Assembly (NCBI RefSeq): GCF_025147485.1
Contig: NZ_CP102263.1
Location: forward strand, 2,183,501-2,247,500
Source: Bacteroides uniformis
Lineage (GTDB): Bacteria > Bacteroidota > Bacteroidia > Bacteroidales > Bacteroidaceae
Length of the DNA stretch: 64,000 bases
Reading direction: 5' to 3'
Below, in pieces: positions 39,877 through 60,819 of the stretch (position 1 is the first letter of the stretch; each line of letters opens with the position of its first letter). The translations under genes were made by a program, and so were the position numbers. The notes beneath the pieces are model-generated. The model was given only the letters and a program-made list of their open reading frames with translations, made no database searches and was not told where the DNA came from.

Positions 39877-40767
39877 ATGACTATGAAACCACTTTACCAA
39901 GATCTGCCATTCCCAATAGACAGTCATATACATTATTATATAGAAGACTTGCCGCACTTCATTGTACCTTGGCATTATCATCCGGCCATAGAGATAATGT
40001 ATATAACTAGAGGTATAGGAACCCGTTTTGTTGGGGATTGCATAGAACAGTATGAGGAGGGGGATGTATGTATGATTGGCCCTAATCTCCCTCATGAATG
40101 GCGTAATGATGATGCTTATTTTGATAAGGAGTCTGGTTTGCGTGCTACGTGTATCTGTCTGTTCTTTAAACGTGAGATATTTGATCCGAATTTTATCAGA
40201 TTACCAGAAATGAATAATATTCGTGATTTGATAGAGAGATCACGGCGTGGACTGAAGTTTACCGGAAAATCGAAATTAGAGATAACCCGGTTTATAAGGA
40301 GTTCGGTGAATGATGTAGGGGTTCGGAAGGTAACGAATCTTTTAACACTTCTTGAGCTGATGGCCACATCGACTGAGTATGAGTTACTGGCCTCAGTGGG
40401 ATTTACGAATTCTGTAAATTCAGAAGATTTTGAGAGATTTAATAAGGTATACAAGTTTCTCGTCAAGAACTTTGCGACTTCCATTAGGTTGGAAGAAGTT
40501 TCGACTTTGGTTGGATTGACCCCGACAGCTTTTTGCCGTTATTTCAAGGAGAGGACCAAGAAAACCTTTGTAGAATATCTGAACGAAATGCGTATCGGTT
40601 ATTCGAAAAAACTATTACTGGAAAACAAAATGAAGATTTCTACTATCAGTGGGGAAGTCGGATTCCCTAACTTATCTAATTTTATATCCCAATTTAAAAA
40701 AGTGACAGGAATGTCCCCGTCGCAGTTCCAAAAGCAGTTTGGAGTAAAGGCTAAACAAGCCATTTGA
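39877..40767 (+). CDS. AraC family transcriptional regulator
   Basis: A 296-residue regulator. The N-terminal cupin-like sensing domain (HFIVPWHYHPAIEIMYITRG, EEGDVCMIGPNLPHEW) is followed by the two helix-turn-helix AraC DNA-binding domain over the last 100 residues (EEVSTLVGLTPTAFCRYFKE; ISTISGEVGFPNLSNFISQF; MSPSQFQKQF). It lies directly upstream and in the same direction as the sugar-phosphate/PUL operon and is the only regulator near it; there is no SusR, hybrid two-component or sigma/anti-sigma gene. It probably senses a sugar or sugar phosphate and activates the 40913 promoter. Confidence 0.92.
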   Translation: MTMKPLYQDLPFPIDSHIHYYIEDLPHFIVPWHYHPAIEIMYITRGIGTRFVGDCIEQYEEGDVCMIGPNLPHEWRNDDAYFDKESGLRATCICLFFKREIFDPNFIRLPEMNNIRDLIERSRRGLKFTGKSKLEITRFIRSSVNDVGVRKVTNLLTLLELMATSTEYELLASVGFTNSVNSEDFERFNKVYKFLVKNFATSIRLEEVSTLVGLTPTAFCRYFKERTKKTFVEYLNEMRIGYSKKLLLENKMKISTISGEVGFPNLSNFISQFKKVTGMSPSQFQKQFGVKAKQAI

Positions 40768-40853
40768 TTCTACTATTTTATCATTGAATATTTGGTGGTT
40801 AGAGCCTTGGTTTTCTACTTTTTTTGCAAGGTTTTATCCATTTGCTGCGAATA

Positions 40854-40868
40854 ATGGTAAAATACCAT
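40854..40868. promoter_or_regulatory. Possible operator palindrome ATGGTA-AAA-TACCAT
   Basis: A perfect 6-bp inverted repeat around three A bases, 45 bases upstream of the -7 box of the locus. Nearby TTTGC repeats (40830, 40842) may be further half-sites. Position fits an activator site for the adjacent AraC protein, though AraC sites are more often direct repeats. Confidence 0.35.
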
Positions 40869-40912
40869 AATTATCGGAAAATATAGAGGAAAGAGCGAGT
40901 TCCATATCAGCG

Positions 40913-40920
40913 TACTTTTG
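40913..40920 (+). promoter_or_regulatory. -7 box TACTTTTG of the PUL operon
   Basis: Exact TAnnTTTG match 21 bases before the first ATG of the operon, with no TTTG -33 box at the right distance. A weak upstream element fits a promoter that needs an activator. Transcription would start about 40926. Confidence 0.55.
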
Positions 40921-40940
40921 CAATATAAGATTTTAAAAGT

Positions 40941-41513
40941 ATGATGCTGATGAATGATAAGAGAACAAATGAGTCGCCTTTGCTCTTTATAAAGGATTCT
41001 TTGATCGGTGAAAATGTGAAGAGGAGTTTGAAGACTTTGGCTGATTTACGAGGTGTTTTTCATAATTGTGAGGCTTATGAACAGATGTCTCCTGATACTT
41101 TATTGTATGAGGTGACTTGTCATCTGCCGGTTGAAGAAGGAACGCCAGGGGGACTCTATTTCGGAATCACGAGAATTTATCCAGGTAAGGTTGGTGATGA
41201 GTATTTCATGACCAAAGGACATTTTCATGCCAATATGAATCGTGGGGAGTACTATTGGGGAGTGGAAGGTGAAGGCAGATTGATTATGATGGATCAGAAC
41301 CGAAGGGTTTGGAGTGAGCGGATGTTTCCGGGTAGTCTTCATTATATACCTGGAGGGGTGGCCCATCGTGTGGCAAATATAGGATATTCTGTTCTGTCAT
41401 TCGCTGCTTGTTGGCCTTCGGACGCAGGACATGATTATCAGGTGATTTTGGAGAACGGGTTTTCTGCATCTTTACAGTGTGTGAATGGCAATCCCCAATT
41501 GATAGAAATATGA
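40941..41513 (+). CDS. Cupin-type glucose-6-phosphate isomerase (first copy)
   Basis: A 190-residue archaeal-type phosphoglucose isomerase: a metal-dependent cupin with the ligand set H94-x-H96 in TKGHFHANMNRGEYYWGVEGEG, the Glu of GEYY and a later His in HYIPGGVAHRVAN. It interconverts glucose 6-phosphate and fructose 6-phosphate. First gene of the operon. Its TGA overlaps the ATG of the ROK gene. Unusual beside a second cupin isomerase three genes on; the two share the fold but little sequence, so they may differ in substrate. Confidence 0.85.
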   Translation: MMLMNDKRTNESPLLFIKDSLIGENVKRSLKTLADLRGVFHNCEAYEQMSPDTLLYEVTCHLPVEEGTPGGLYFGITRIYPGKVGDEYFMTKGHFHANMNRGEYYWGVEGEGRLIMMDQNRRVWSERMFPGSLHYIPGGVAHRVANIGYSVLSFAACWPSDAGHDYQVILENGFSASLQCVNGNPQLIEI

Positions 41514-42469
41514 ATATGAAGTATATCATAGCTGTAGATTTGGGAGGAACCATTACAAAAGTCGGTCTCTTACGCAATGGAGAACTGGTAGACTATGTAA
41601 AAATGCCTTCTCGTCAAGATTTGGATATGACAGCAAGTTTGCCGGAGATTGAAAATGCAATTGATTTCCTGCTAAATTCAAATGGTGTGAAGCGCCTCTT
41701 TGGAGTGGGTATAGCTTTTCCAGGGCTAGTAAATAATAAAAAAAGCATTATTATATCTACGAATGAAAAATATGATGATGGAGTGGAGCTTGATTTGGAT
41801 AGATGGGCGGATGAACATTGGGGAGCCCCCTTTTACATTGATAATGACGCACGGCTTGCAGCAATTGGAGAATGGCAATATGGGAGCGGCAGAGGATATG
41901 ATAGCGTTGTTATGATGACTATTGGTACGGGCATAGGATCGGGAGTCATTATGAATGGTGAGGTAATGTATGGAAAGCACTTTCAAGCAGGTTCGTTGGG
42001 TGGCCATTTTGTAGTAGACTACAAAGGAAGGTTATGCTCTTGTGGAAACAAGGGGTGTGTGGAGGCTTTGTCCTCTTCATTCTTCCTTCATAAAATTATA
42101 AAGGATCATGCTTGCCTGTCTCCTTCGTTTAAAATGTCATCTCAGAATTATGATTTTAAAGAAATCTTCCAATTGGCGGAACAAGGAAATAGAGACGCGT
42201 TATTGGTACGAAATGAATGCATTGAAATATGGGGAGCTGCTGTTATAAATTTTATTCATGCTTATGATCCTGAAGTGGTGATACTTGGAGGGGGAATCAT
42301 GAATAGCCATAAAGTGATAGTGCCTTATATCGAGGAACGGGTGTCAAAGTTTGCCTGGACTCCGAGTGCAAAAGTATCTGTGGTAGTTTCTAGCTTGGGA
42401 GATTATGCAGCTTTGTATGGTTTGGAATATTGTTTAAGAAAAAAGATAAAAGATGAAGTATTCTGCTAA
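41510..42469 (+). CDS. ROK family sugar kinase
   Basis: A 319-residue ROK protein without a DNA-binding domain, hence a kinase rather than a repressor. MKYIIAVDLGGTITKVG holds the phosphate loop, DNDARLAAIGEWQYG the catalytic aspartate, TIGTGIGSGVI the second loop, and CSCGNKGCVEAL the structural zinc cysteines. Likely substrates are glucose, mannose, GlcNAc or ManNAc. The ATG at 41510 forms an ATGA overlap with the preceding stop; 41516 is also possible. It overlaps the next gene by 17 bases. Confidence 0.88.
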   Translation: MNMKYIIAVDLGGTITKVGLLRNGELVDYVKMPSRQDLDMTASLPEIENAIDFLLNSNGVKRLFGVGIAFPGLVNNKKSIIISTNEKYDDGVELDLDRWADEHWGAPFYIDNDARLAAIGEWQYGSGRGYDSVVMMTIGTGIGSGVIMNGEVMYGKHFQAGSLGGHFVVDYKGRLCSCGNKGCVEALSSSFFLHKIIKDHACLSPSFKMSSQNYDFKEIFQLAEQGNRDALLVRNECIEIWGAAVINFIHAYDPEVVILGGGIMNSHKVIVPYIEERVSKFAWTPSAKVSVVVSSLGDYAALYGLEYCLRKKIKDEVFC

Positions 42470-44216
42470 TTACGATAAATATCCTTTTGTGCAGGTGTCC
42501 TATAATTCGGATGACTGTATTTCCGGTTGGTTTGCCATTACCGATAGTATCAGTGAACGTTTGAAGGTACTGGAGAAGCCGTTGAAAGTGGTTGTGATTG
42601 AGTGCTATCAAGGAGTGTTTGAGAATGATATACGTAATGCTTTTGCCGGTAGGTTCAATAATGCTTTATTTGTTCATACAGATAGTGCGATGTTGCCGGA
42701 AGAGAAAATCAATGATTTTTTCTATCCTGATATTACCGATGATGAATTATTCGGCTATCTGACCCGGTATACAATGGAATGTTTTTTTGATTTCGATAAA
42801 GTTACTGGTATCCGGCAACAGATAGAAGATTTGCAGTCTGGTATTGTAATAGTCTATGGGGTTGGTGCGGCCTATCTTTGTGAACATCCTGATTTGTTGA
42901 TTTATGCCGATATGGCAAGATGGGAGATACAGTCCAGATTCCGTAAAAATGAAATATCAAATATAGGTGTCAACAATAAAGAAGAACGAACCTCCTTGCA
43001 GTATAAAAGAGCTTTTTTCGTAGATTGGAGAATATGCGATAGGCACAAAAAGATGCTGATGGCAAAGGTGGATTATGTTTTGGATACGAACCGGCGCAAT
43101 CATCCTAAGATGATTACAGGCAAAGCGATGTTTGAGGGATTGGAGAAAGCGGTAAATGGTCCGTTTCGTGTAGTTCCCTTTTTTGATCCGGGGCCTTGGG
43201 GAGGACAGTGGATGAAAGATGTTTGCGATTTAGAACGGACGATGCCTAATTATGCTTGGTGTTTTGACTGTGTACCTGAAGAAAACAGTCTGTTGTTGGC
43301 CTTTGGGGATGAGAAAGTGGAAATACCGTCAATTGATTTGATTTTTGCTTATCCCCGACAGTTATTGGGTGATGCTGTGTATGGCAGGTTTGGTGATGAG
43401 TTTCCAATACGGTTTGACTTTCTTGATACGATAGAAGGCGGCAATCTAAGCTTACAAGTTCATCCTTTGACTGAATATATACAACAGAAATTTGGGATGC
43501 ATTATACGCAGGATGAGAGCTACTATATTTTGGATGCTAAGGAGGGGGCAACTGTATATTTGGGTTTGAAGGATAATATTAAACCGGAGGAGATGCTTGA
43601 TGAATTGGAAAAATCGCAAAGGACTGGTGAATTTGAAGTGGAGAAGTATGTAGGTATTTATCCGGCAAAGAAGCATGATCATTTTTTAATTCCGGCTGGT
43701 ACGGTACATTGTTCGGGAAGGAATAGCATGGTACTTGAGATTAGTGCAACCCCATACATCTTTACATTTAAGTTGTGGGATTGGGGACGGATGGGACTGG
43801 ATGGCAGACCGCGTCCGATTAATATAGCTCATGGGGCTAATGTGATACAATGGAATAGAACGGAGTCTTGGGTGAAAGAAGAACTGATAAACAAGGTCTC
43901 TGTTATTGGTGAAGGAGATTCTTGGCGTGAAGAAAAGACGGGACTTCATGAATGGGAATTTATAGAAACAAGAAGACATTGGTTCACGGACAAAGTTTTG
44001 CATAAGAATGAGTCGGGTGTTAATGTTCTGAATCTGATTGAGGGACGTTCGGTGATAGTGGAAAGTCCTATAGGACAATTTTCTCCGTTTGTTGTCCATT
44101 ATGCGGAAACTTTTATTATTCCTGCTGCCATAAAGGAATATACAATAAAACCTTATGGGGAGTCTGAAGGAATGGAATGTGGAACAATTAAAGCTTTTGT
44201 AAGACATCATGCATAA
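42453..44216 (+). CDS. Two-domain class I mannose-6-phosphate isomerase
   Basis: A 587-residue protein. The C-terminal 350 residues are a class I phosphomannose isomerase cupin: NLSLQVHP near residues 331-338 and DESYYILDA and IPAGTVHCSGRNSMVLEIS supply the zinc ligands and active site. The N-terminal 215 residues form a separate domain with VVVIECYQGVFENDIRNAF, GIVIVYGVGAAYL and IYADMARWEIQSRF; it resembles nucleoside/NMP-kinase folds in layout but lacks a GKS/T P-loop. Ordinary phosphomannose isomerases are 300-400 residues. It overlaps its neighbours by 17 and 8 bases. The enzyme converts mannose 6-phosphate to fructose 6-phosphate; the extra domain may bind a sugar phosphate or nucleotide. 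Confidence 0.8.
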   Translation: MKYSANYDKYPFVQVSYNSDDCISGWFAITDSISERLKVLEKPLKVVVIECYQGVFENDIRNAFAGRFNNALFVHTDSAMLPEEKINDFFYPDITDDELFGYLTRYTMECFFDFDKVTGIRQQIEDLQSGIVIVYGVGAAYLCEHPDLLIYADMARWEIQSRFRKNEISNIGVNNKEERTSLQYKRAFFVDWRICDRHKKMLMAKVDYVLDTNRRNHPKMITGKAMFEGLEKAVNGPFRVVPFFDPGPWGGQWMKDVCDLERTMPNYAWCFDCVPEENSLLLAFGDEKVEIPSIDLIFAYPRQLLGDAVYGRFGDEFPIRFDFLDTIEGGNLSLQVHPLTEYIQQKFGMHYTQDESYYILDAKEGATVYLGLKDNIKPEEMLDELEKSQRTGEFEVEKYVGIYPAKKHDHFLIPAGTVHCSGRNSMVLEISATPYIFTFKLWDWGRMGLDGRPRPINIAHGANVIQWNRTESWVKEELINKVSVIGEGDSWREEKTGLHEWEFIETRRHWFTDKVLHKNESGVNVLNLIEGRSVIVESPIGQFSPFVVHYAETFIIPAAIKEYTIKPYGESEGMECGTIKAFVRHHA

Positions 44217-44994
44217 AGATAATTTTGATAAGGGGATTGATATAGGGATAACAGAAAATCCGTTAGGTTTTATTTATGGTAAGGACGTTTTTGGCCCGAC
44301 AGTAGAAAACCGGTGGTTGGATGATATCCGGTCTAGTTTGTTGGATCCGAAATGTGAAGGACCGGATATTGTCTATTCTATAGCTATGGATGTGGGTAAG
44401 ACTGTTCATAAAGCGCTTTTGCAAAAACAGCATTTGCTTTTTGGAGTAGTGGCTTATGCCAAAGGAAGTTTGGGAATGGAACCCATTCGCAGTCAGGGAC
44501 ATATTCATAAGGTCTCACCTTTTAGTCAATGGTCCACTCCAGAGGTTTATGAGATATGGAATGGAGAGGCGGTCATTTACATGCAAGAGTCGGCTACAGA
44601 TGAACCGGGGAGGTGTTATGCTGTTTATGCACAGCCTGGCGATGTGGTGGTGGTCCCTCCATATTGGGTACATGCTACCATTAGTACGAATGCAGATGAA
44701 TCTCTTGTGTTTGGTGCATGGTGTGACCGTGAATATGGTTTTGAATATGCTGAGATTCGTCGTCATAAAGGTATTGCATGGTATCCTGTTTTTGAGGGTG
44801 ATGGATTGAAGTGGATCAGAAATACAAACTATCATTTTTCGGAACTGGTAAGAAAGGCTCCAAGAGAGTATCATGATTTAGGTATTGGGAAAGGTAAATC
44901 CATTTATAAAATTTTTGAAGATGCTCCGGATACTTTCTTATATGTTCCGAATCCGTCAGTGAAAAAGGAAGTTTGGATAAGTTTTGAACCCTAA
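44209..44994 (+). CDS. Cupin-type glucose-6-phosphate isomerase (second copy)
   Basis: A 261-residue cupin isomerase related to archaeal phosphoglucose isomerase, with ligands H98-x-H100 in SQGHIHKVSPFSQWSTPEVYEI and a later His in VVVPPYWVHATIST. It is 70 residues longer than the first copy, with extra N- and C-terminal segments. The start overlaps the phosphomannose isomerase stop by 8 bases, so the three isomerases and the kinase are made from one tightly coupled message. Exact sugar-phosphate specificity is open. Confidence 0.8.
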   Translation: MHKDNFDKGIDIGITENPLGFIYGKDVFGPTVENRWLDDIRSSLLDPKCEGPDIVYSIAMDVGKTVHKALLQKQHLLFGVVAYAKGSLGMEPIRSQGHIHKVSPFSQWSTPEVYEIWNGEAVIYMQESATDEPGRCYAVYAQPGDVVVVPPYWVHATISTNADESLVFGAWCDREYGFEYAEIRRHKGIAWYPVFEGDGLKWIRNTNYHFSELVRKAPREYHDLGIGKGKSIYKIFEDAPDTFLYVPNPSVKKEVWISFEP

Positions 44995-45008
44995 AATATA
45001 AGTTTAAT

Positions 45009-46418
45009 ATGAAAAACAGACATATAATATTTTTAATAGCTACAGTTGTAGCAACAGGAGGATTGCTTTTCGGCTTTGATACTGGGGTAATTTCAGGAGC
45101 GATTCCATTTCTTCAGTCAGATTGGGGAATAGATAATAATGATGTTGAATGGATTACGGCGGCTGGTTTGTTGGGAGCTATGTTGGGGGCTGTATGTTGT
45201 GGGCGTTTATCTGATATATTTGGAAGAAGAAAAATCATATTGGTTTCTGCTGTGATATTTGCAGTGGGAGCGTTATGGTCAGGACTGGCAACGGATTTGA
45301 AGAGCTTGGTTTTTTCTCGTCTGTTTCTTGGTATAGCTATAGGTGTGGCATCATTTACTGTTCCATTGTATATAGCAGAAATTGCTCCAGCTAAATCCAG
45401 GGGACGTCTGGTTTCAATGTTTCAGTTAATGGTTACAATAGGTATTTTACTTTCATACATGTCAGATACCTTTTGGGCTGATGAAAACAAGTTGGATTGT
45501 TGGAGATGGATGTTTTGGGCAGGTGTCGTACCGGCTTTGGTATTACTGGTAGGTATGTGTTTTGTGCCTGAAACACCTCGGTGGCTGTTGAGTAAAGGAC
45601 GGTTGAAAGAATGTAGGAAAGTGTTGCAGAAAATAGAACCGGAAAATACAGTAAATGATTTAATTGGACAAATGGAGGTGGAAATAGAGAAAGATAGGAA
45701 TAGTGCGGTAGGATGGCGATATTTGATGCAGCCTTGGTTGAGAACTCCTCTAATGATTGCTGTTTGTATTATGTTTTTTCAACAGTTTGTAGGTATTAAC
45801 ACAGTTATTTATTATAGTCCGAAGATTTTCCTGATGGCAGGATTTGAAAGTACACTCTCTGCTATTTGGGCTTCTGTAGGTATTGGAATTGTAAATGTTG
45901 TATTTACAGTGATTTCTCTTTATTTAGTGGATAGAATCGGACGACGAAAGTTGTATTTTATTGGTCTGTCAGGAATTGCCTTTTCTGTTTTGTGCCTTAG
46001 TGCTTGTTTTATTTATGCTAATCAGTTGGGCGAAATCGGAAGGTGGTTAATGGTCATTTTTATGTTTGGATATGTTGCATTTTTTGCAATTAGTATTGGA
46101 CCTTTGGGATGGTTGGTCATTTCCGAGATATTTCCGCAGAAAGTACGGGGATTGGGGACTTCGATAGGTTCATTGGCTGTATGGATATTTAATTGCATTG
46201 TCTCCTTTACTTTCTTTAAGATTATAGATTTTTTTTCTATACCAGGTACCGAAATTGTTGTTGGACAAACGACTTCTGAGAATCCGGCAGGTGCATTTTT
46301 TCTTTATGGATTTATTGCCGTGTTGGGTTTGGTATGGGGGTATTTATTCTTGCCGGAGACAAAAGGGTTATCATTGGAGGAGATTGAACAGAAATGGAGA
46401 AAAAATAGAGAATGTTGA
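45009..46418 (+). CDS. Sugar porter MFS transporter (XylE/AraE-like)
   Basis: A 469-residue inner-membrane proton symporter with 12 hydrophobic segments and sugar-porter signatures: GGLLFGFDTGVISGAIPFL, GRLSDIFGRRK, PETPRWLLSKGR, QQFVGINTVIYYSP, DRIGRRKLY and LPETKGLSLEEIE. It should import a monosaccharide released in the periplasm by the glycosidases encoded downstream, supplying the ROK kinase. It follows the isomerase by 14 bases. Confidence 0.93.
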   Translation: MKNRHIIFLIATVVATGGLLFGFDTGVISGAIPFLQSDWGIDNNDVEWITAAGLLGAMLGAVCCGRLSDIFGRRKIILVSAVIFAVGALWSGLATDLKSLVFSRLFLGIAIGVASFTVPLYIAEIAPAKSRGRLVSMFQLMVTIGILLSYMSDTFWADENKLDCWRWMFWAGVVPALVLLVGMCFVPETPRWLLSKGRLKECRKVLQKIEPENTVNDLIGQMEVEIEKDRNSAVGWRYLMQPWLRTPLMIAVCIMFFQQFVGINTVIYYSPKIFLMAGFESTLSAIWASVGIGIVNVVFTVISLYLVDRIGRRKLYFIGLSGIAFSVLCLSACFIYANQLGEIGRWLMVIFMFGYVAFFAISIGPLGWLVISEIFPQKVRGLGTSIGSLAVWIFNCIVSFTFFKIIDFFSIPGTEIVVGQTTSENPAGAFFLYGFIAVLGLVWGYLFLPETKGLSLEEIEQKWRKNREC

Positions 46419-46445: not shown

Positions 46446-49007
46446 ATGAAAAATGGATTTTATTTTTTAGGTCTATGTATCTGCTTGTGTTTATGGGCTT
46501 CTTGCTCCAGTATGGAAGAAGTACGTGATTATAATGAAAAATATACGGGAGAGTATACGAGCAGGATTGCTTTCCCTATTGGGGGATTGGGGACGGGAAT
46601 GTTTTGTGTAGAAGGTAGTGGTGCAATTTCTAATATGAATATTAGGCATAAAACTGAGATGTTGAATGAACCGACAATGTTTGCCGGATTATATTTGAAA
46701 GGGGTAGATAATGGTAGTATTGTTGTGGAAGGACAAGTACCGGATTGGAAAAAATTTGGCCAACCACAGTCAACAAAAGGATACGGCGGCACGTGGGGAT
46801 TACCTCGATTTAAAGATTGTGATTTTGAAGTAAAATTCCCTTTTGCCAAATTGAGAATGAGTGACGATGAACTGAAGATGGACGTGACAATGAAGGTTTG
46901 GAATCCATTTATTCCTACAGATGAAAATAACTCAGGGCTTCCAGTTGCTGGTTTTGAATATACGTTTAAAAATAAATATGCTAAAGAAGTAGAAGCCATA
47001 TTTTCTTATAATTCAAAGAACTTTGTAGATATTCGTAATGGAGGAGCATCTATTAGGCCAATTGAAAATGGTTTTATAATATCACAGAAAGGAACAGAAA
47101 CGCAGCCGTTTCATCAGGCTGATTTTGCAATCTTTACAGATGAACCGGAAACTAAGGTTAATTATTGTTGGTTTAGAGGATGGTCTTTTGACTCATTCAC
47201 GATGTGCTGGAATGAGATGAGCAGTGGGGTAATTAAAGAAAATCCTGCTAATATGGCGGATGCTCCCGGAGCTTCCTTGTATGTACCGTTTAGATTGCAA
47301 CCGGGAGAGTCAAAGACAATCCGTTTATATATGGCATGGTACGTTCCTTTCTCATTAGTTCGTGAGGGATTGGAACCGATTGATGATGTAGATGTACCTA
47401 TCGTACCTGTAGTTAATGAAAGAGGAGAGCCCGCAGGCTATATTGATACTTCCATTCAGTTGTCCGATAAATACCGTCCCTGGTATAGCAGTAGATTTGC
47501 AAATATAGAGGAAGTCGCAGACTATTGGATGAAAAATTATAATACGTTGAAAGAAAAAACAGAGCTGTTTACTGATGCATTTTATGCTACAACTTTGCCT
47601 GCTGAAGTTGTTGAAGCTGTTGCTGCTAATCTTACTATATTAAAATCACCTACGATTTTTCGGCAATACGATGGTCGGATGTGGAATTGGGAAGGTTGCG
47701 GTAATGAATATGGCTCTTGCTATGGTTCTTGTACACATGTTTGGAATTATGCTCAAGCTATACCTCATTTGTTTCCTAAAATGGAAAGAACACTGAGGGA
47801 AACGGAATTTTTTGTTAGTCAAGCTAAGAATGGGCACCAAGCATTTCGCTCTGCACTTCCTATCCGACCCATCAGACATAATTTTCATGCAGCAGCTGAT
47901 GGGCAGTTAGGTGGTATTATGAAAGTATACCGTGATTGGCATATATATGGTAATGACGAATGGTTGAAGTTGATTTATTCATACGTACAGAATAGTCTTG
48001 ATTATTGCATTAATACGTGGGATCCTAAAAGGAAAGGTGTTATAGAGGAACCTCATCATAATACTTATGACATTGAATTTTGGGGGCCTAGTGGTATGAT
48101 TAATAGTTACTATACTGGCGCATTACAAGCATTTGTTGCTATGGGTGAACATTTGGAGAAAGATATGACAGAATATAGAGAGTTGCTAGATAAGAGTATT
48201 GACTACATGGAAAATCAATTGTACGACGGTGAATATTTTATTCAAAATATTCGTTGGAAGGAGTTGCAGGCTTCTGATCCGACGAAAGTACAGTCTGTCA
48301 ATTCTAATTATTCGAAAGAGGGTTTGGATTTATTGGAAAAGGAAGGGCCGAAATATCAATACGGAAAAGGCTGTTTATCTGATGGAGTAGTAGGAGCATG
48401 GCTTTCTTTGGTCTGTGGACTGGACGAGGCTATAGATAGAAAGAAAATATTAAGTCATTTATTGTCTGTTCATAAATATAATTTAAAGAGGAATCTCAGA
48501 AAACATGTAAATCCTCAGCGCTCGACTTTTGCTTTAGGTGATGAAGGAGGCTTATTATTATGTTCATGGCCCAAAGGAGGAAAGTTACAACTTCCTTTTG
48601 TTTACTCCAATGAGGTATGGACAGGTATTGAATATCAAGTGGCTTCTCATTTGATGTTTGAAGGTGAGGTTGAGAAAGGACTTGATATTGTCCGTACTTG
48701 TCGTGATCGGTATGATGGAAGAGTACGTAACCCATTTAATGAATATGAATGTGGGGCATGGTATGCCCGTGCAATGTCTAGTTATGCTATGCTCCAAGCT
48801 TTGACTGGAATACAGTATGATGCAGTGGATTCTACTTTATATATTGATTCAAGGATAGGTGATGATTTTACGTCTTTTTTGTCGACGGAAACAGGTTTTG
48901 GTAATGTTGGTCTAAAAGATGGTAAACCTTTCATTGAGGTGAAATATGGGAAGATTGATGTGAAAAAGTGCTTTGTTTCTGACATAGAAACAGATTTTGT
49001 TAATTGA
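46446..49007 (+). CDS. GH116 family glycoside hydrolase, lipoprotein (first copy)
   Basis: An 853-residue protein with lipoprotein signal (LCLWASC, acylated Cys20). It has the GBA2-type N-terminal beta domain (FPIGGLGTGMFCVEGSGAISN) and a C-terminal (alpha/alpha)6 barrel with YDGRMWNWEG, SCTHVWNYAQAIPHLFP and HNTYDIEFWGPSGM; Asp542 in the last motif corresponds to the family acid/base. GH116 enzymes are retaining beta-glucosidases, beta-xylosidases or beta-N-acetylglucosaminidases. A close paralogue ends the operon at 60820. Probably periplasmic or surface-anchored. Confidence 0.87.
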   Translation: MKNGFYFLGLCICLCLWASCSSMEEVRDYNEKYTGEYTSRIAFPIGGLGTGMFCVEGSGAISNMNIRHKTEMLNEPTMFAGLYLKGVDNGSIVVEGQVPDWKKFGQPQSTKGYGGTWGLPRFKDCDFEVKFPFAKLRMSDDELKMDVTMKVWNPFIPTDENNSGLPVAGFEYTFKNKYAKEVEAIFSYNSKNFVDIRNGGASIRPIENGFIISQKGTETQPFHQADFAIFTDEPETKVNYCWFRGWSFDSFTMCWNEMSSGVIKENPANMADAPGASLYVPFRLQPGESKTIRLYMAWYVPFSLVREGLEPIDDVDVPIVPVVNERGEPAGYIDTSIQLSDKYRPWYSSRFANIEEVADYWMKNYNTLKEKTELFTDAFYATTLPAEVVEAVAANLTILKSPTIFRQYDGRMWNWEGCGNEYGSCYGSCTHVWNYAQAIPHLFPKMERTLRETEFFVSQAKNGHQAFRSALPIRPIRHNFHAAADGQLGGIMKVYRDWHIYGNDEWLKLIYSYVQNSLDYCINTWDPKRKGVIEEPHHNTYDIEFWGPSGMINSYYTGALQAFVAMGEHLEKDMTEYRELLDKSIDYMENQLYDGEYFIQNIRWKELQASDPTKVQSVNSNYSKEGLDLLEKEGPKYQYGKGCLSDGVVGAWLSLVCGLDEAIDRKKILSHLLSVHKYNLKRNLRKHVNPQRSTFALGDEGGLLLCSWPKGGKLQLPFVYSNEVWTGIEYQVASHLMFEGEVEKGLDIVRTCRDRYDGRVRNPFNEYECGAWYARAMSSYAMLQALTGIQYDAVDSTLYIDSRIGDDFTSFLSTETGFGNVGLKDGKPFIEVKYGKIDVKKCFVSDIETDFVN

Positions 49008-49096: not shown

Positions 49097-52000
49097 ATGA
49101 AAACAATAGACATTAAATCTAATAGCAGGATATTACATTGGGCATTTTATATTTTCCTTTTTACTGTTTTGAGTGTGGGAAGTGTATATGCATCGGAAGA
49201 TACTCCGTCTGTATTATCCACTAATCAATCAGAAAAGAAAACAGTAAAAGGAAATGTGATGGATGAATATGGACAACCATTGGTGGGGGTAGCTGTACAA
49301 GTTAAAGGAACTTCATTAGGTGTTGTTACTGATTTGGATGGAAATTTTAGTTTTAGTATTCCAGTTGATAGTCGTGCCTTGTTATTTTCTTATTTGGGAA
49401 TGAAAACTCAAGAGGTATCTGCCAATAAGAGTAACTATAAAATAGTGATGGTAGAGGATGCCACCCAAATGGAGGAAGTTGTAGTCATTGGGTATGGTTC
49501 TCAGTCTCGTGAGAAGATTACGACATCTGTGACCAAGCTTGATAAAGAGGCTTTGAAGAATGTACCCTATGCAAATGCAGCTTCAGCCTTACAAGGTACA
49601 GTGTCTGGTGTACGTGTGCAAAGTATTTCAGGGCAACCAGGTGCAGAACCTCGTATTATAGTCCGTGGTGGTACTTCCATTAATAATCCTAATGGTGCTA
49701 CTCCACTATATATTATTGATGGTGTTATGAGGGCGAATATGGTTCATATAGCTTCGGAAGATATTGAATCTATCCAAATTCTGAAAGATGCTGCTGCTAC
49801 TTCTATTTATGGAGCCCAAGGTTCAAATGGTGTTGTAATTGTTACTACTAAAAAGGGGAAGGCCGGTAAAACCAGAGTTGAATATAGATATAATCTGACA
49901 ATTTCTGATATTGGTAAAAAATATGAATTTGCCAATGCTGAAGAATTTTTGACCCTTATGAGGAAAGGTATGATTTCACCAGCGAAATTTGGAAAAGCTA
50001 CCGAACAAAGATTGATAGGACATTTAGGTTATGGAACAGGAAATGATCTGACTAATAATACTGCCTTCTCTACTCAATACTTGACTGATGAGAATCGCTA
50101 TAAATTAGATCAAGGGTGGAAATCAATGCCAGATCCAGTAGATCCGAGTAAGACATTGTTATACTCAGATACTGATTTTCAGGATAAAATTTATCGTACT
50201 GGTTTTTCTCATAATCACCATATTGAAGTTTCAGGTGGAACGGAAAAGGCTACCTTTAATATGGGATTAGGGTATATGACTAATGAAGGAACTGTTATTA
50301 CAACTTCATATAAACGGTATAATTTTAGTTTGAATGGTTCTTTGCAAGCACGGGATAATTTGAAAATTTCAGCTAGAACTACTTATTCAAACTCGTTTAC
50401 GTATGGTTCTCCATTAGCTGCAGATGCAACATTCTATCGTTCACCGGCTGCCTCACCTACCACTAAATTCAGATTTGAAGATGGTAGTCTGGCTCCAGGA
50501 GCTGCCCAGTATCTGGGAAATGCTGTATATCATATGAACAAGGCACAAAGAGAGTATGACTATCAGAATTTATCAATAGGAGTAGATGCAGATTGGACTA
50601 TATTGCCAGGATTGTCTTTCAAACCAGCTCTTTCTTTATTTGAAGTGAACAGTAATAACTATACTTTTTGGGATGCTTTTTGGAATGGACCGAGAGATTA
50701 TATAACTACAAGAAATGCAAATGCTGATACTTACAAATGGCGGCAATATCAGGCAGATGCTGTATTCAACTATGTTAAATCTTTCAATGAAAAACACAAT
50801 TTGAATGTAACAGCTGGTTATGCTTATTATTTTAGGAAAGAGGCCCGTTTAGCAGCTGCTGGTAGAGGTGCTTCTACTGATTTGATTCCTACTTTGAATG
50901 CCTCAAGTGTTCCTGTAAGTGTGAGTAGTTCTATTACAGAGCGATCTATGCAAGGTATTTTTGCTCGTATAGGGTATGATTATAAGGATAAATATTTGAT
51001 TTCTGTATCTGCAAGATATGACGGTGCTTCCAATTTGGGTACGAACAACAAATGGGGATTTTTTCCTGGCGTGTCATTAGGGTGGCATGTGGATAAAGAA
51101 AAGTTCTGGTCATTTATGCCTGAGAATCTAATGCGTCTGAAATTGCGTGCCAGCTATGGAGTAAATGGTAATATTTCAGGCTTGGGGGATTATACGGCTC
51201 AAGGTAGTTATAGTGTAGGATCTAAATATTTAGGTAATGCAGGTATCACTATGGGAACTATGGCAAATCAAGACTTGAGTTGGGAGGAGTCTAAGACATT
51301 TGATATCGGTACTGATATTTCCTTTTTTAATAATCGGTTAAACTTTATCTTTGATTATTTCAATCGTACCACAGATAATTTGCTGACAAATCGCACTTTA
51401 CCTCATTCTACAGGCTTTGGCTCTATTTTCACTAATTTAGGGCGTTTACAAAATAGAGGTATTGAGTTGGAAATGAATGCAAGAATATTACCGGTATCCA
51501 GTTCTATTCAATGGTCATTAGGTTTTAATGCCTCGAAGGTGACCAATAAAATATTGAAGCTGCCAGATAATGGGGTTGAAAATAATCGGATTGGTGGTGA
51601 GTACATTTGGGATGCTAAACTGGGTAAACATACTTGGCAAGGTGGTTTACAGGAAGGAGGACGAATTGGAGATTTGTTTGCCTATAAGATGATAGGTGTA
51701 TATTCTACTGATGAGGAAGCACAGAATGCTAATGAGCCGATAGATAATGTTATTACAGTCCCTGATAAAACCAAATATGGTGGTGATGCAAAGTGGCAAG
51801 ATACTGATGGTAATGGTGTGATTGACAGTAAAGACCGTGTATATGTTGGTAATATTTATCCGGATTGGACTGGGGGTATTAATACTTCTCTATCTTATAA
51901 AGGGTTCGATTTGTATTGCAGACTTGATTTTACATTGGGTCATACCATATATAATTTTGCCAAAGGCTTTTTGGATTATAATTGGCAGGGTGATAATAAT

Positions 52001-52348
52001 ATGACGAAAGATGTCGTAAATCGCTCCTGGAAAGAACAAGGTGACAAAGCGGACATGCCGAGATTCTATTGGCATGGTGATCGTGGACAGCAGAATGCTA
52101 TCCGAGGTAGCTCTTTGTATCATGAATCAGGAGATTTTCTAGCCATTAGAGAAGTTTCTTTAAGTTATACAGTTCCTGCAAATATCATACAAAAGATTCG
52201 TTTAAGCGGACTTCGGTTTACGGTTACGGGAAATAATCTGCACTATTTTACTAAATATTCTGGTCTTAATCCAGAAGAAGGTGGACAGGATAATGGTAGA
52301 TATGCTATGCCGAGAAATATTATTTTTAGTGCAAATGTATCATTTTAA
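49097..52348 (+). CDS. SusC-like TonB-dependent outer membrane transporter
   Basis: A 1083-residue transporter that imports oligosaccharides through the outer membrane with the SusD lid. Signal peptide (about 1-31), carboxypeptidase-regulatory-like domain (KGNVMDEYGQPLVGVAVQVKG, about 50-125), SusC/RagA motif EEVVVIGYGSQ near 130, plug domain (LKDAAATSIYGAQGSNGVV) and a beta barrel ending in Phe (FSANVSF). There is no N-terminal secretin/anti-sigma signalling domain, which agrees with the lack of a sigma/anti-sigma pair. It is 12 bases before susD. Confidence 0.97.
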   Translation: MKTIDIKSNSRILHWAFYIFLFTVLSVGSVYASEDTPSVLSTNQSEKKTVKGNVMDEYGQPLVGVAVQVKGTSLGVVTDLDGNFSFSIPVDSRALLFSYLGMKTQEVSANKSNYKIVMVEDATQMEEVVVIGYGSQSREKITTSVTKLDKEALKNVPYANAASALQGTVSGVRVQSISGQPGAEPRIIVRGGTSINNPNGATPLYIIDGVMRANMVHIASEDIESIQILKDAAATSIYGAQGSNGVVIVTTKKGKAGKTRVEYRYNLTISDIGKKYEFANAEEFLTLMRKGMISPAKFGKATEQRLIGHLGYGTGNDLTNNTAFSTQYLTDENRYKLDQGWKSMPDPVDPSKTLLYSDTDFQDKIYRTGFSHNHHIEVSGGTEKATFNMGLGYMTNEGTVITTSYKRYNFSLNGSLQARDNLKISARTTYSNSFTYGSPLAADATFYRSPAASPTTKFRFEDGSLAPGAAQYLGNAVYHMNKAQREYDYQNLSIGVDADWTILPGLSFKPALSLFEVNSNNYTFWDAFWNGPRDYITTRNANADTYKWRQYQADAVFNYVKSFNEKHNLNVTAGYAYYFRKEARLAAAGRGASTDLIPTLNASSVPVSVSSSITERSMQGIFARIGYDYKDKYLISVSARYDGASNLGTNNKWGFFPGVSLGWHVDKEKFWSFMPENLMRLKLRASYGVNGNISGLGDYTAQGSYSVGSKYLGNAGITMGTMANQDLSWEESKTFDIGTDISFFNNRLNFIFDYFNRTTDNLLTNRTLPHSTGFGSIFTNLGRLQNRGIELEMNARILPVSSSIQWSLGFNASKVTNKILKLPDNGVENNRIGGEYIWDAKLGKHTWQGGLQEGGRIGDLFAYKMIGVYSTDEEAQNANEPIDNVITVPDKTKYGGDAKWQDTDGNGVIDSKDRVYVGNIYPDWTGGINTSLSYKGFDLYCRLDFTLGHTIYNFAKGFLDYNWQGDNNMTKDVVNRSWKEQGDKADMPRFYWHGDRGQQNAIRGSSLYHESGDFLAIREVSLSYTVPANIIQKIRLSGLRFTVTGNNLHYFTKYSGLNPEEGGQDNGRYAMPRNIIFSANVSF

Positions 52349-52360
52349 TAAAGTAAAGTT

Positions 52361-53851
52361 ATGAAAATTAGAAATATAATAAATAGTACAATAGCTTTGT
52401 TTATGGTCCTGACATTTGCTTCTTGTGATGCACTAGACCTTAAGCCAATAAGCTTTATAACGAATGAATCTTTCTGGCAGACAGAAGATGACGTGAAGGG
52501 TGCGTTAAATGGTATTTATGTCCAGTTACGAGGAGCTGCTGAACATGATTTGTATATATTGGGGGAAGCGCGTAGCGAAATACTGACTGTAGGTATCGGT
52601 GGATATGGCGGATATGATATTTATTATTATAATACGTTGACACAAGCTAATATGCCTATATCCTGGATACGTTATTATCAGATAGTCAATTCATGCAATC
52701 TTCTTTTAAAGTATGCTCCCAATGTGACTTTTAATAACGAGACTTCCCGCAATAAAATGTTGGCTCAAGCTTATACAATGAGGGCTTTCATGTATTTTGT
52801 GATGACTCGTACATGGGGGGATTTGATAATCCATACAGATCCTATTGAAAACACAAATTCAGAAGTCCTTTATAAAGAAAGAAGACCCCAAACGGAAGTT
52901 TTCCAACTGATAAAAGATGATTTGGAGAAAGCTTTGTCTTTATATCCGGATGACAATTTCGGTGATCAAAGAGCTATGTGGTCAAAACCGGCAACATTGG
53001 CTTTGAAAGCTGAAGTATATCTTTGGAGTGGAAAAAAAATGAATGGTGGAAGCAGTGATATTGAAACTGCATTAAATGCTTTGAATTCAATTAAAACGGA
53101 TAAGCTTCGTTTACAGCCGGATTTTGCTGATGTATTTGCTTATGATAATAAGGGTAATGATGAAATCTTGATGAGTGTTAGATTTCAGGATTTGGAATCT
53201 GGTATTAACTATTTCAGATATATGTGGATACATGCGAGTGCTGTTCCTGGAGATGCTCCTCAAGAGGTAAAGGATATAGTTTATCCGATAGGGCCGGGAC
53301 AAGGTATTATAGTAGCTTCGGACGAGTATAGAAAGCAATATACAGAAGATGATACTCGAAAAAATGCTTCTTTTCTTGAGATTTATTCTAAAGATCAGGA
53401 AACTGGAGAAAATAAATTTTATGTTAGTGTAGTATTAAAAGGTAAAGGCTTGGTGCGAGATGGTGATCGTATTTTTGCAGATGATATCATATTGTACCGT
53501 TATGCTGATATTTTATTAATGAAGGCTGAGGCTAAAAATGCTTTGGGACAAGATCCTTCTGCAGAAATTAATGAGGTCAGGAAACGTGCATATAAAGACA
53601 AGTATGAAGAGCATATTTATGTGAATAGCACAAAAGAGGCGAATGATGCAGCTATCTTGAAAGAAAGACTTTTAGAATTGGCTTTTGAAGGTAAAAGGTG
53701 GTGGGATTTGGTACGTTTTGACAAAGCCTTTGATTTGGTTCCTTCTTTGAGAGAGCATAAGGGGGAAGATTATATGATGCTGTTCCCCATTCCTTTGTCA
53801 ACAATAAGCGTGGAGCCGAAAGTTACTCAAAATCCTGGTTGGGATAAATAA
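52361..53851 (+). CDS. SusD-like glycan-binding lipoprotein
   Basis: A 496-residue surface lipoprotein (LTFASC, acylated Cys22) forming the lid of the SusC pore. Family marks are the RagB/SusD N-terminal region with FWQTEDDVKGALNGIY, TPR-like helices (AQAYTMRAFMYFVMTRTWGD) and the C-terminal LKERLLELAFEGKRWWDLVRF. Ligand specificity cannot be read from sequence. It is followed by a strong hairpin before the next gene. Confidence 0.97.
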   Translation: MKIRNIINSTIALFMVLTFASCDALDLKPISFITNESFWQTEDDVKGALNGIYVQLRGAAEHDLYILGEARSEILTVGIGGYGGYDIYYYNTLTQANMPISWIRYYQIVNSCNLLLKYAPNVTFNNETSRNKMLAQAYTMRAFMYFVMTRTWGDLIIHTDPIENTNSEVLYKERRPQTEVFQLIKDDLEKALSLYPDDNFGDQRAMWSKPATLALKAEVYLWSGKKMNGGSSDIETALNALNSIKTDKLRLQPDFADVFAYDNKGNDEILMSVRFQDLESGINYFRYMWIHASAVPGDAPQEVKDIVYPIGPGQGIIVASDEYRKQYTEDDTRKNASFLEIYSKDQETGENKFYVSVVLKGKGLVRDGDRIFADDIILYRYADILLMKAEAKNALGQDPSAEINEVRKRAYKDKYEEHIYVNSTKEANDAAILKERLLELAFEGKRWWDLVRFDKAFDLVPSLREHKGEDYMMLFPIPLSTISVEPKVTQNPGWDK

Positions 53852-53934: not shown

Positions 53935-55131
53935 ATGAAAAAGTCTATATTTCTCTTTTATTGTCTGCTTGTCCACTTGTGTTCTGCGACAACATTATTT
54001 GCTCAACAGAATGACGTTTTGATACCAGGTGTCAAGAAAATAAAGGATGTAATAATATATAAGGATACCATGTTTTACTCCGCTTTTCCTTCAGCTGTAA
54101 AATTATCGAATGGAGAGATACTGGTATCGTTCAGAAGAGCTCCAGACCGTAAAGTCTTTAAGGAGAAGAAGAATAATCATTTGGACCCGAATAGTTATCT
54201 GGTAGTAGTGAGATCCAAAGATGGCGAACATTGGACCAAGGAACCGGAACTGCTTTATGCCCATCCGTTTGGAGGCTCACAAGATCCATGTTTGTTGAAG
54301 TTGAAAGATGGAACACTGCTATGTGCTAGTTATTTGTGGACATTTATTCGTCCGGATGGTTTAGCTGTTCTTAAGAAACCGTTCGTACAGAATACAGACG
54401 CTGTTTTTGCAGGAGGATATTTGCTCCGTTCTTATGATGATGGTAGAACTTGGAATGATTTGATTATACCTTGTAGCGTTCCGTCTGAAATAAATTATAG
54501 TGGATTGGGAGGTAAATTGCCGGCTTATAATCGTGGCGCTTTGTATGAAGGAAAAGATGGACGTATTTTTTGGGCAGTAGTAGCTTCTGATACAGAAGCT
54601 TTAAGAAATACGTCGGTCTATTTGCTTATATCCAAAGATAAAGGAAAAACATGGGAATACGGTACGAAAATTGCTAAAGATAAAAAGGTCTCGTTTAATG
54701 AGACTTCCATGTATGAAACGCCTAATGGGGATTTGATTGCTTTTATGCGTTCGGAAGCGTTTGGTGACCAAGCTTGTATTGCACGGTCCATAGATGGTGG
54801 GAAAACATTTGGTGAATGGAAAAGTATGGGGTTCAAAGGACATCCTCTCCAGGCAATGAGGCTGCCAGACAATAGAGTTTTGTTGACATATGGTTATCGT
54901 CATGAACCTTGTGGAGTTAGAGCCAGAATTCTTAATGCAGAATGTACAGATTTTGCCACGGCTCCTGAGATTATCATAAGAGATGATGCGGATGATGGAG
55001 ATGTCGGATATACATGGGCTGTACAGCTGGATGAGAAGAGGGTATTGGTGGTATACTATATAAACTTTGACAGAGCCAAAGGTACTAGACATATACAAGG
55101 CTCTATTTTAGAGATTGAACCGCAAGGATAA
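53935..55131 (+). CDS. Secreted BNR-repeat (sialidase-fold) glycosidase candidate
   Basis: A 398-residue protein with signal peptide (FLFYCLLVHLCSATTLFAQ) and a six-bladed sialidase-like propeller. Asp-box copies are SKDGEHWTKE, SYDDGRTWNDL, SKDKGKTWEYG and SIDGGKTFGEWK. FRRAP near residue 65 sits where sialidases have RIP. It is often labelled exo-alpha-sialidase, but the locus has no sialic acid catabolic genes and the full arginine triad was not confirmed, so another exo-activity on the same fold is possible. Confidence 0.75.
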   Translation: MKKSIFLFYCLLVHLCSATTLFAQQNDVLIPGVKKIKDVIIYKDTMFYSAFPSAVKLSNGEILVSFRRAPDRKVFKEKKNNHLDPNSYLVVVRSKDGEHWTKEPELLYAHPFGGSQDPCLLKLKDGTLLCASYLWTFIRPDGLAVLKKPFVQNTDAVFAGGYLLRSYDDGRTWNDLIIPCSVPSEINYSGLGGKLPAYNRGALYEGKDGRIFWAVVASDTEALRNTSVYLLISKDKGKTWEYGTKIAKDKKVSFNETSMYETPNGDLIAFMRSEAFGDQACIARSIDGGKTFGEWKSMGFKGHPLQAMRLPDNRVLLTYGYRHEPCGVRARILNAECTDFATAPEIIIRDDADDGDVGYTWAVQLDEKRVLVVYYINFDRAKGTRHIQGSILEIEPQG

Positions 55132-55146
55132 TTGTTAATACATAAT

Positions 55147-56337
55147 ATGATGAAGAGAAAACAAATTCCGGGCAATATGGATTCCAGCCCTCAAAAGATG
55201 TCTCGTCGTAAAGCATTGGCTACTATGGCAGGTGCCGTAGGATTGGCAGCATTACCTGGTGTAGGGCATGCATTGAATCCCATCAAGAAAGAACGGAGAG
55301 ACATTCAAACCTCTGCTTTTACATCTATCCATACTATGCGTAACGCTGTATCTCGTCAGTTTACGACTTTTGACTTGAATACTAAGATTAAAGCCCATTT
55401 GGTTGGACCGGGTGAGAAATCTGTACTGGTAGATCACACTTCTCCTGGTGTAATTACCCGTATGTGGTTTACTATTAATGGTTGGTTTTGGGAAAATTGG
55501 GATTTAAGTAAGGAGCGGTGGCCTGATCCTACTATTTTGAAAATGCTGATTTTGCGTATTTATTGGGATGGTGAGGACTATCCTTCTGTAGAATGTCCGA
55601 TTGGTGACTTCTTTGGTATAGGGCATTGTGAATATAAGCATTATATGTCCAAATATATAGGTATGTCCAGTGGAGGTTTCTATTGTTATTTTCCGATGCC
55701 ATTTAAAAAGGTAAGGATAGAAGTGGAAAATCTTCATCACCGTTTGACTACAAGCGTTTTCTTAAATGCCAATTATGATCAATTGGAGAGTTTACCTGAG
55801 GGTATGGGACGATTCCATTGTTTATATAATGCTGGTACCAATCCTGGTTATGAACCATTAACCATATTGCAGACTAAAGGACATGGACATTTTATTGGCT
55901 GTTCCTTGTCCATGCAGAGTTGGCTTCCAAACTACTTGGGATATTTGGAAGCACCCGAGTTTATTTATATCGATACGGAAGACAAAAGTGTACCGACTAT
56001 AGTTGGTTCTGGACTTGAAGATTATTTTAATGGTGGCTGGTATTTTAGGGAAGGTGAATTCTGTGGAGAGTTGCATGGAGTTCCTATAAAGGATCCGCTC
56101 CGTTCGATGGTGAGTATGTATCGTTATCATGAGCAAGATGCAATCTGTTTCAATGAAAGTTTTATTTTTGATTTTATAAATCCCCGTAAACCGGAGCAGA
56201 CCCGGCCCTTTAAATTCTCTTCGGCGGCTTTCTGGTATCAAGACAAAGCTGTACCTCTGGCGTTCAAATTACCAGAGAAAGAAAAGTTGGTTGATTGGTA
56301 TAGAATGCGTGATACAGACCATCAAGCTATACCATAA
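55147..56337 (+). CDS. GH172 (DUF2961) family glycoside hydrolase
   Basis: A 396-residue protein of the DUF2961/GH172 family: TMRNAVSRQFTTFDLNTKIKA, GPGEKSVLVDHTSPGVITRMW, YWDGEDYPSVECPIGDFFG and GLEDYFNGGWYF are the conserved blocks with acidic catalytic candidates. Characterised GH172 enzymes act on fructofuranosyl or arabinofuranosyl linkages. The N-terminus carries MSRRKALATMAGAVGLAALPG, a twin-arginine-like signal. ATG 55147 is used; the frame extends to a TTG at 55132 just after the previous stop. Confidence 0.88.
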   Translation: MMKRKQIPGNMDSSPQKMSRRKALATMAGAVGLAALPGVGHALNPIKKERRDIQTSAFTSIHTMRNAVSRQFTTFDLNTKIKAHLVGPGEKSVLVDHTSPGVITRMWFTINGWFWENWDLSKERWPDPTILKMLILRIYWDGEDYPSVECPIGDFFGIGHCEYKHYMSKYIGMSSGGFYCYFPMPFKKVRIEVENLHHRLTTSVFLNANYDQLESLPEGMGRFHCLYNAGTNPGYEPLTILQTKGHGHFIGCSLSMQSWLPNYLGYLEAPEFIYIDTEDKSVPTIVGSGLEDYFNGGWYFREGEFCGELHGVPIKDPLRSMVSMYRYHEQDAICFNESFIFDFINPRKPEQTRPFKFSSAAFWYQDKAVPLAFKLPEKEKLVDWYRMRDTDHQAIP

Positions 56338-60794: not shown

Positions 60795-60819
60795 AAAAAT
60801 GATAATAAATACAGTATTT

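Follow-up and report, generated by a model that had tools for sequence, protein, structure and literature searches.

Polysaccharide utilization loci (PULs) are usually described by their hydrolases, and the cytoplasmic fate of the freed sugar is left to central metabolism. The question raised by the locus described here is why a PUL should carry sugar-phosphate genes of its own, and for which sugar. The locus lies in a 64,000-nucleotide stretch of the Bacteroides uniformis genome (assembly GCF_025147485.1, contig NZ_CP102263.1, positions 2,183,501 to 2,247,500), which as a whole we call the window. The element in question is a run of five genes at window positions 40941–46418, encoding two cupin-family proteins (GPI1 and GPI2), a ROK-family sugar kinase, a phosphomannose-isomerase-like protein (PMI) and an MFS sugar porter. 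We find that this cassette is real and widespread and is assembled from known families. On balance we think it probable that the five genes, together with an AraC-type regulator at their head, form a portable cytoplasmic cassette that would funnel one or more hexoses into glycolysis.

The first-pass annotation had claimed a five-gene sugar-phosphate module, with overlapping or near-contiguous genes, inside a PUL and ahead of its SusCD pair. This description holds, as all five open reading frames (ORFs) were found in place on the forward strand and matched their families. GPI1, a cupin of the phosphoglucose isomerase (PGI) type with 190 amino acids (aa; 40941–41513), is followed by the ROK kinase (41510–42469), by PMI, a class I phosphomannose-isomerase-like protein of 587 aa (42453–44216), by GPI2, a PGI-family cupin of 261 aa with a divergent active site (44209–44994), and by the sugar porter (45009–46418; TIGR00879 with 389.1 bits against a cut-off of 237.8, and also PF00083). 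After these come GH116a, a predicted glycoside hydrolase (GH), SusC and SusD. Successive genes overlap by 4 bp (GPI1/ROK), 17 bp (ROK/PMI) and 8 bp (PMI/GPI2), and a gap of 14 bp separates GPI2 from the porter. The likely start of the kinase is ATG 41510, which overlaps the GPI1 stop; the listed ORF begins at GTG 41477. At the head of the cassette, on the same strand, is the gene for the AraC-type regulator, which also has a cupin domain (39877–40767; PF12833, PF07883). In the gap between this gene and GPI1 (40768–40940) there is a single match, TACTTTTG (40913–40920, forward strand, 20 bp 5′ of the GPI1 start), to TAnnTTTG, which we take to be the Bacteroides-type -7 consensus. The match is weak evidence for a promoter element, since the window has many such motifs (69 occurrences on both strands against 49.1 expected).

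The cassette is rare among close relatives and recurs across distant ones. Housekeeping isomerases had been expected elsewhere in the genome, and indeed a PGI-family gene is found at 4607284, and the 326-aa frame at 2854045 matches PMI; GPI1 and GPI2 are the only two PF06560 genes. In a sample of the family, this genome was the only one among 201 in which PF06560 exceeded its cut-off, and in a sample of the phylum it did so in 21 of 395, of which 6 (this genome included) had E < 1e-17, the others being weak partial matches. Within the genus, 6 of 158 genomes (this one among them) carry GPI2, which has 2081 relatives at E 1e-3. From a scan of named genomes we took the best 80 of 220 GPI2 relatives and counted their partners on the same strand, from seven genes before GPI2 to six after it, on contigs many of which are short. 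PMI was found at 72 of the 80 loci, GPI1 and ROK at 59 each and the MFS porter at 57, with all five genes at 33. Among the 42 well-flanked loci (>6 kb ahead of GPI2 and >4 kb behind it) the counts were 39 for PMI, 38 for GPI1, 36 for ROK, 33 for MFS and 24 for all five. All five genes are contiguous and in the window order at 17 of the 80 loci, and the first four at 25, so the set of isomerases with kinase and porter is conserved and its order is not unique to this strain. An AraC homologue (459–532 bits) stands directly 5′ of GPI1 at 6 of the 80 loci. The hosts in the phylum include Parabacteroides, Dysgonomonas, Bacteroides salyersiae, B. nordii, B. clarus, Prolixibacteraceae and Mucilaginibacter; outside it they include Cohnella, Salipaludibacillus, Clostridium and Longibaculum.

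The closest parallel was found in another Bacteroides genome (G687), which has the order AraC-GPI1-ROK-PMI-GPI2-MFS-GH116a-SusC-SusD-BNR-GH3-GH20, the BNR gene being split across two fetched stretches. Its GPI2 is 77% identical to that of the window, and its AraC homologue, before GPI1, scores 602 bits. Since the order is shared from AraC to GH20, the cassette and the GH116a-SusCD-BNR-GH3-GH20 run belong together in this sister PUL (L279/L280), in which GH172 (no phmmer match at 1e-5) and GH116b were not found. In a PMI tree of 71 rows, made by a quick, short search with no outgroup, the PMIs of Parabacteroides sp. PH5-46 and Proteiniphilum fall into one group with the window PMI (SH-like approximate likelihood-ratio test, SH-aLRT, 98). 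This group is nested in a set of 13 rows, every one with GPI2 (100), and is separate from 17 rows of the own family that lack it (98). Taken with the patchy distribution of the cassette, this grouping suggests horizontal transfer.

The two cupins differ in what they keep of the known active site. Residues were counted over all rows of sufficient length (85 for GPI2, 62 for GPI1 and 107 for PMI), their places being taken from alignments; a smaller set of chosen rows (42, 37 and 49) had preceded it, and the larger set revealed the one GPI2 row that keeps Tyr. In cupin PGI, His88, His90, Glu97 and His136 bind Mn, and His158 and Tyr152 take part in proton transfer (PMC6627849). GPI1 matches PF06560 with 80.5 bits against a cut-off of 20.7, and its nearest PDB entry is the Thermococcus PGI 1j3p (E 6.4e-35). 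Its H94, H96, E103 and H142, which stand at the four metal-ligand places, are present in 62 of 62 rows, and the equivalent of His158 in 60 of 62. GPI2 also matches PF06560 (70.1 bits; cupin-PGI match in the PDB at 6e-8) and has all four metal ligands in 85 of 85 rows, with Phe178 at the place of His158 in every row and Cys172 at the place of Tyr152 in 84. The annotation of both as cupin PGIs thus stands for the family and the metal site of each, but as GPI2 has lost the proton-transfer residues of PGI we class it as a PF06560 relative and not as a PGI.

A similar departure is seen in the kinase. The window ROK (PF00480, 188.8 bits) keeps the DxGxT motif (as DLGGT) and the CxCGxxGCxE motif (as CSCGNKGCVE), and its ExGH motif is altered to SLGGH. 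Among 65 rows selected by a score of >150 bits to the window ROK, the catalytic Asp is present, at an NDAR site, in the 64 whose motif was listed, and the Glu of ExGH is present in none, its place being taken by xLGGH or close variants. Of the other ROK proteins encoded in this genome, three have GELGH, GEFGH or GEVGH, and in two more the pattern had no match. Escherichia coli NanK likewise lacks this Glu and has His153 in its place (PMC5458393), so the loss alone is no proof of an unusual sugar. With the PGI proton-transfer residues lost in one protein and the ExGH Glu in the other, GPI2 and ROK are nevertheless both probably specialised.

PMI is built of an N-terminal domain (about residues 1–235) and a PMI domain (236–587). 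Residues 235–481 match the mannose-6-phosphate isomerase of PDB entry 1qwr (4.9e-13), and the PMI domain aligns with 19 housekeeping PMIs (hhalign 100%). The full protein matched no Pfam family at 1e-3 and none above a cut-off; its score with PF21621 was 14.8 bits, under the cut-off of 27, and we therefore class it as a divergent PMI relative. Q335 is present in 106 of 107 rows, and H337, E355, H419 and R446 in all 107; these are presumably the metal ligands and the active-site Arg. In the N-terminal domain (42453–43157), D153, E158, Q160, R162, K185, K199 and D211 are near-invariant (46–49 of 49 rows). With this domain as the sole query, a search returned 268 matches; among the 120 of these that were listed, the named ones were mostly partial PMIs, and no functional lead was found. 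The two-domain protein has at least 8000 relatives scored, which may include ordinary PMIs. Motifs picked out by eye had made the N-terminal domain look like a degenerate P-loop or uridine kinase; hhalign gave 0.5% against 18 uridine kinases from Bacteroidota, a weak test as the 18 are much alike, and the candidate was rejected. Three PMI homologues (L093, L094 and L095; 885–894 aa) are fusions with some 330–360 extra N-terminal residues that start, by eye, with a ROK-like phosphate motif, and the window ROK finds the fused N-terminus of L094 at 5e-10 (phmmer). The zinc-motif cysteines are absent from L093 and L094, the two fusions that were aligned.

The kind of substrate is suggested by two Firmicutes in which genes of the phosphotransferase system (PTS) occupy the place of ROK. 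In Clostridium gasigenes (L212), EIIB, EIIC and EIID of the mannose/sorbose family stand ahead of GPI2-GPI1-PMI. They were recognized by profile, under the NCBIfam cut-offs, EIIB and EIIC being above those of Pfam, and a 141-aa EIIA-like gene was seen by eye only; no ROK was found in the stretch in view. In Longibaculum muris (L210), a cellobiose-type EIIC (TIGR00410, above cut-off) and a GH1 gene stand beside GPI2-GPI1-PMI. The GH1 protein scores best as a 6-phospho-beta-galactosidase, under that cut-off and near beta-glucosidase, and no ROK was in view on this contig, which ends just past PMI. PTS import delivers sugar phosphate. The isomerases therefore most likely act on hexose-6-phosphates, and the ROK kinase of the other loci would most simply make hexose-6-phosphate. 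Elsewhere, in a Spirochaetes metagenome-assembled genome (L209:1447-5525), ROK, PMI and GPI2 were seen beside an ABC-permease-like gene and two tandem genes of the neighbour family D10 with no obvious signal peptide.

As to which hexose, the same PMI is also found without GPI1 and GPI2. In stretches of up to 20 kb around such genes, GH92, GH76 or GH38 is present at 23 of 36 loci, whereas none of 19 control stretches, taken around housekeeping PMIs, has any of the three (Fisher p 1.4e-6, a value that flatters the difference because the 36 loci are partly close kin). This supports mannose as the sugar of PMI. Because the same PMI without GPI2 so often lies near alpha-mannosidases, mannose is also the sugar that we would name first for ROK and PMI in the cassette, with less confidence for ROK than for PMI. 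A ROK of the xLGGH kind occurs at only four of the GPI-free PMI loci (L086, L088, L099 and L100), of which L088 has GH92 and L099 has GH38. DUF4185-like neighbours of PMI (cluster C7) were considered as endo-D-arabinanases and rejected, their score being 52 bits against 275–317 for the DUF4185 proteins of this genome.

Reading reactions, direction, cell location and sugar from the gene content, we propose that the periplasmic hydrolases of the host PUL would free a monosaccharide, which the MFS porter would bring in and the ROK kinase would convert to a hexose-6-phosphate. PMI would then turn mannose-6-phosphate, and GPI1 glucose-6-phosphate, into fructose-6-phosphate, both as metal-dependent cupin isomerases. 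GPI2 would add a third hexose-phosphate conversion with a chemistry unlike that of PGI.

Several observations weigh against this proposal. Trp replaces Tyr152 in 61 of 62 GPI1 rows. GPI1 and ROK are each absent from 21 of the 80 GPI2 loci, and from 4 and 6, respectively, of the 42 well-flanked ones. Where a GPI-free PMI has a ROK beside it, this is mostly a different and distant one (20–48 bits). GPI2 loci have GH92, GH76 or GH38 at only 11 of 80, or at 4 of 40 when loci of >18 kb are counted. The proposal does not account for the N-terminal domain of PMI, about 235 aa without a Pfam family, and the window ROK as query had no match in two of the three PMI fusions. In Cohnella (L179), GPI2-GPI1 are surrounded by an FGGY kinase, a Zn-alcohol dehydrogenase and a mannitol-dehydrogenase-like gene, with neither PMI nor ROK in view, so a polyol or ketose route fits better there. 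Finally, no common sugar emerges from the widely varied hydrolases of the 80 GPI2 loci. The counts are 20 of 80 for GH2 cluster D5, 9 for GH38, 8 for D10, 7 each for D16 and GH127 and 6 for sulfatase; GH92 is found at two loci, and GH66, GH95, GH42, GH13, GH31 and trehalase-like genes at one or few. A Pfam scan of 46 of 138 listed neighbour proteins gave 96 families, the commonest of the 25 listed occurring in 3 members. Cluster D5, the most frequent, was considered as the common hydrolase and set aside; for one member no relative was found in the PDB at 1e-20, and for two members no NCBIfam model rose above its cut-off. D10 (L168:4572-6701) and D16 (L168:12223-14898) are large protein families that look glycosidase-like by eye; one member of each had no Pfam match at 1e-6, and a second D10 member had none at 1e-3.

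The alternative that survives best is a non-standard hexose. ROK would phosphorylate it, GPI2 would then act as an epimerase or shift the keto group, and the rest of the way to fructose-6-phosphate would be left to GPI1 and PMI. The specialised ROK pocket and GPI2 active site are consistent with this, as are the dehydrogenases and FGGY kinase of Cohnella and an aldo/keto reductase at the Salipaludibacillus locus (L194). Alpha-mannosidases also occur at fewer GPI2 loci than GPI-free PMI loci, these being different collections made with different queries. However, no such sugar has been identified, the range of hydrolases nearby is too wide to point to one, and NanK likewise lacks the Glu, having His153 in its place. 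We regard this explanation as unlikely. Its strongest form would be a new sugar-phosphate pathway, in which a mobile cassette has a ROK whose hexose is neither glucose nor mannose and GPI2 is a cupin epimerase or keto-isomerase of a new kind, linked through PMI and GPI1 to fructose-6-phosphate. This we put forward tentatively, as a doubtful but possible case; if true, the pathway would be at work in a wide range of PULs in Bacteroidota and also, where import is by PTS or ABC systems, in Firmicutes.

It is also conceivable, and in our view rather unlikely, that the cassette is redundant, its isomerases being duplicated glucose and mannose isozymes, inducible so as to boost flux when the PUL floods the cell with both sugars, and GPI2 a diverged second PGI. 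The key residues retained in GPI1 and PMI would fit this, and so would the loci with glucan-type enzymes (GH66, GH13, GH31, trehalase-like) and the mannose/sorbose-family PTS of C. gasigenes. Against it, the residues that serve proton transfer in PGI are gone from GPI2 (His158 in 85 of 85 rows, Tyr152 in 84 of 85), ROK lacks the ExGH Glu in 65 of 65 rows compared with GExGH in three other ROKs of the same genome, and no gene accompanies GPI2 more often than PMI does (72 of 80), which is odd for spare copies. Improbable is a non-catalytic role, by which GPI2 and the N-terminal domain of PMI would be hexose-phosphate binders that regulate the kinase and isomerases or act as their scaffold. The lost proton-transfer residues of GPI2 would agree with such a role, as would an N-terminal domain without a known match, whose search returned mostly partial PMIs among the named matches in the 120 of 268 listed; but the metal ligands of GPI2, kept in 85 of 85 rows, would be needless for a scaffold.

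The enzymes of the window PUL, all on the forward strand, bring in one more sugar. GH116a (46446–49007), the SusC-like TonB-dependent receptor (49097–52348; PF00593, PF07715, PF13715) and the SusD-like protein (52361–53851; PF07980, PF14322) are followed by a BNR-repeat protein (53935–55131; PF13088), GH172 (DUF2961; 55132–56337; PF11175 212 bits; PDB 4kq7, 8ah3, 7v1v, 8ic8), GH3 (56375–58984; PF00933, PF01915), a GH20 beta-hexosaminidase-like protein (58977–60794; PF00728 408.6 bits) and GH116b (60799–63375). GH116a matches ExoMA2 (PDB 8ic6) at E 6.9e-98, the next entry being the glucosylceramidase 9wiz at 4.2e-6, and GH116b matches it at 4.5e-112, with glucosylceramidase at 1.5e-9; no further PDB relative was found for either. 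In ExoMA2, Glu431, His446, Arg483 and Asp557 comprise the nucleophile, the acid/base and two residues that separate arabinofuranose (Araf) from glucose (PMC10509167). GH116b keeps the equivalents of E431, H446, R483 and D557, which were located by position count in the alignment (offset 4), and GH116a keeps the four residues by eye. Both are thus predicted to be of the exo-beta-D-arabinofuranosidase type, and they are 63.5% identical to each other. The best PDB match of GH3 is the beta-xylosidase 7zb3, with beta-glucosidases among the others, and it could release glucose or xylose. The BNR-repeat protein is very near the solved Dfer_1899 (5hx0, E 6e-169), which has no named function, and it possibly represents an uncharacterised hydrolase family. 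The first-pass annotation had the cassette probably handle a sugar released by these hydrolases, such as glucose, mannose or an epimer, with an isomerase complex as another possibility. The hexose-6-phosphate part gains from the two PTS loci without ROK in view, but the local hydrolases are not plainly glucose- or mannose-releasing, both GH116s being of the arabinofuranosidase type.

A second PUL of the same genome, at about 1243932–1297514 (G000:C1; L265–L267), has three DUF4185, five GH172-like and one GH116 gene and three SusC/D pairs, as well as a fucose-isomerase-family gene and an FGGY-like kinase recognized by eye. All matches to DUF4185 and Fucose_iso_C in the genome lie outside the window. 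The GH116 of this second PUL is 64.5% identical to GH116a and 68.9% identical to GH116b over the best 524 and 514 residues, and 46–47% over a second stretch. By comparison with PMC10115798 and PMC10509167, the second PUL is a probable utilization locus for D-arabinan of the mycobacterial type. D-arabinose as the cassette sugar of the window PUL, which ROK would make into D-arabinose-5-phosphate and a cupin into ribulose-5-phosphate, is favoured by the ExoMA2-like GH116s and by GH172, but we set it aside as highly improbable, because the separate D-arabinan PUL with its fucose isomerase-family gene and FGGY-like kinase exists and neither GH116 nor GH172 occurs at any of the 80 other GPI2 loci, and the PTS loci moreover suggest hexoses and a predicted fucose isomerase is the most abundant carbohydrate-active enzyme of Dysgonomonas gadei on D-arabinan (PMC10115798). 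GH3 and BNR genes of the window type are likewise found at none of the 80 loci, and GH20 at one. With the cassette read as serving hexoses, the target of the window PUL may be a glycan that loses its beta-D-Araf there and then yields its hexoses to the cassette. As a conjecture, this glycan could be arabinomannan, but no alpha-mannosidase was seen in the window PUL.

A conserved kinase-isomerase-porter cassette in PULs of differing specificity would be a second, sugar-defined layer of these loci, and it would offer a function to families named only by analogy, GPI2 and the PMI with the N-terminal domain. In a literature search limited to open-licence papers no description of the cassette was found, which agrees with the earlier suggestion of an undescribed route. 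The parts belong to known families; as far as we have found, what is uncharacterised is their combination, along with GPI2, the N-terminal domain of PMI and the ROK subfamily.

Compared with known systems, GPI1 resembles the cupin-type PGI of Pyrococcus and Thermococcus (PF06560) in family, length, metal ligands, the T-x-G-H-x-H motif and His158, and differs from it by the Trp for Tyr152. GPI2 resembles the same enzymes in family and metal ligands, but has about 70 aa of extra length, Cys for Tyr152 and Phe for His158. Cupin-type PGIs have reportedly been described from bacteria as well, by Hansen et al. in 2005. The window ROK is like the glucokinases and ManNAc kinases of its family in PF00480, DxGxT, the catalytic Asp and CxCGxxGC, and unlike them in having xLGGH or close variants for ExGH and in its NDAR and NxKYxD signatures. 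The C-terminal domain of PMI corresponds to class I mannose-6-phosphate isomerase of the 1qwr type, with Q-x-H-P, Glu, His and Arg retained, whereas the N-terminal domain of about 235 aa is extra. Alpha-mannan PULs with PMI, often together with ROK and MFS genes, share the same PMI family with its N-terminal domain, but have no GPI1 or GPI2 and mostly the other, distant ROK. The D-arabinan loci (PUL42 of D. gadei and the Microbacterium cluster) have the ExoMA2-type GH116 and GH172 in common with the window PUL, which differs from them in carrying a hexose-phosphate cassette instead of DUF4185 and fucose isomerase.

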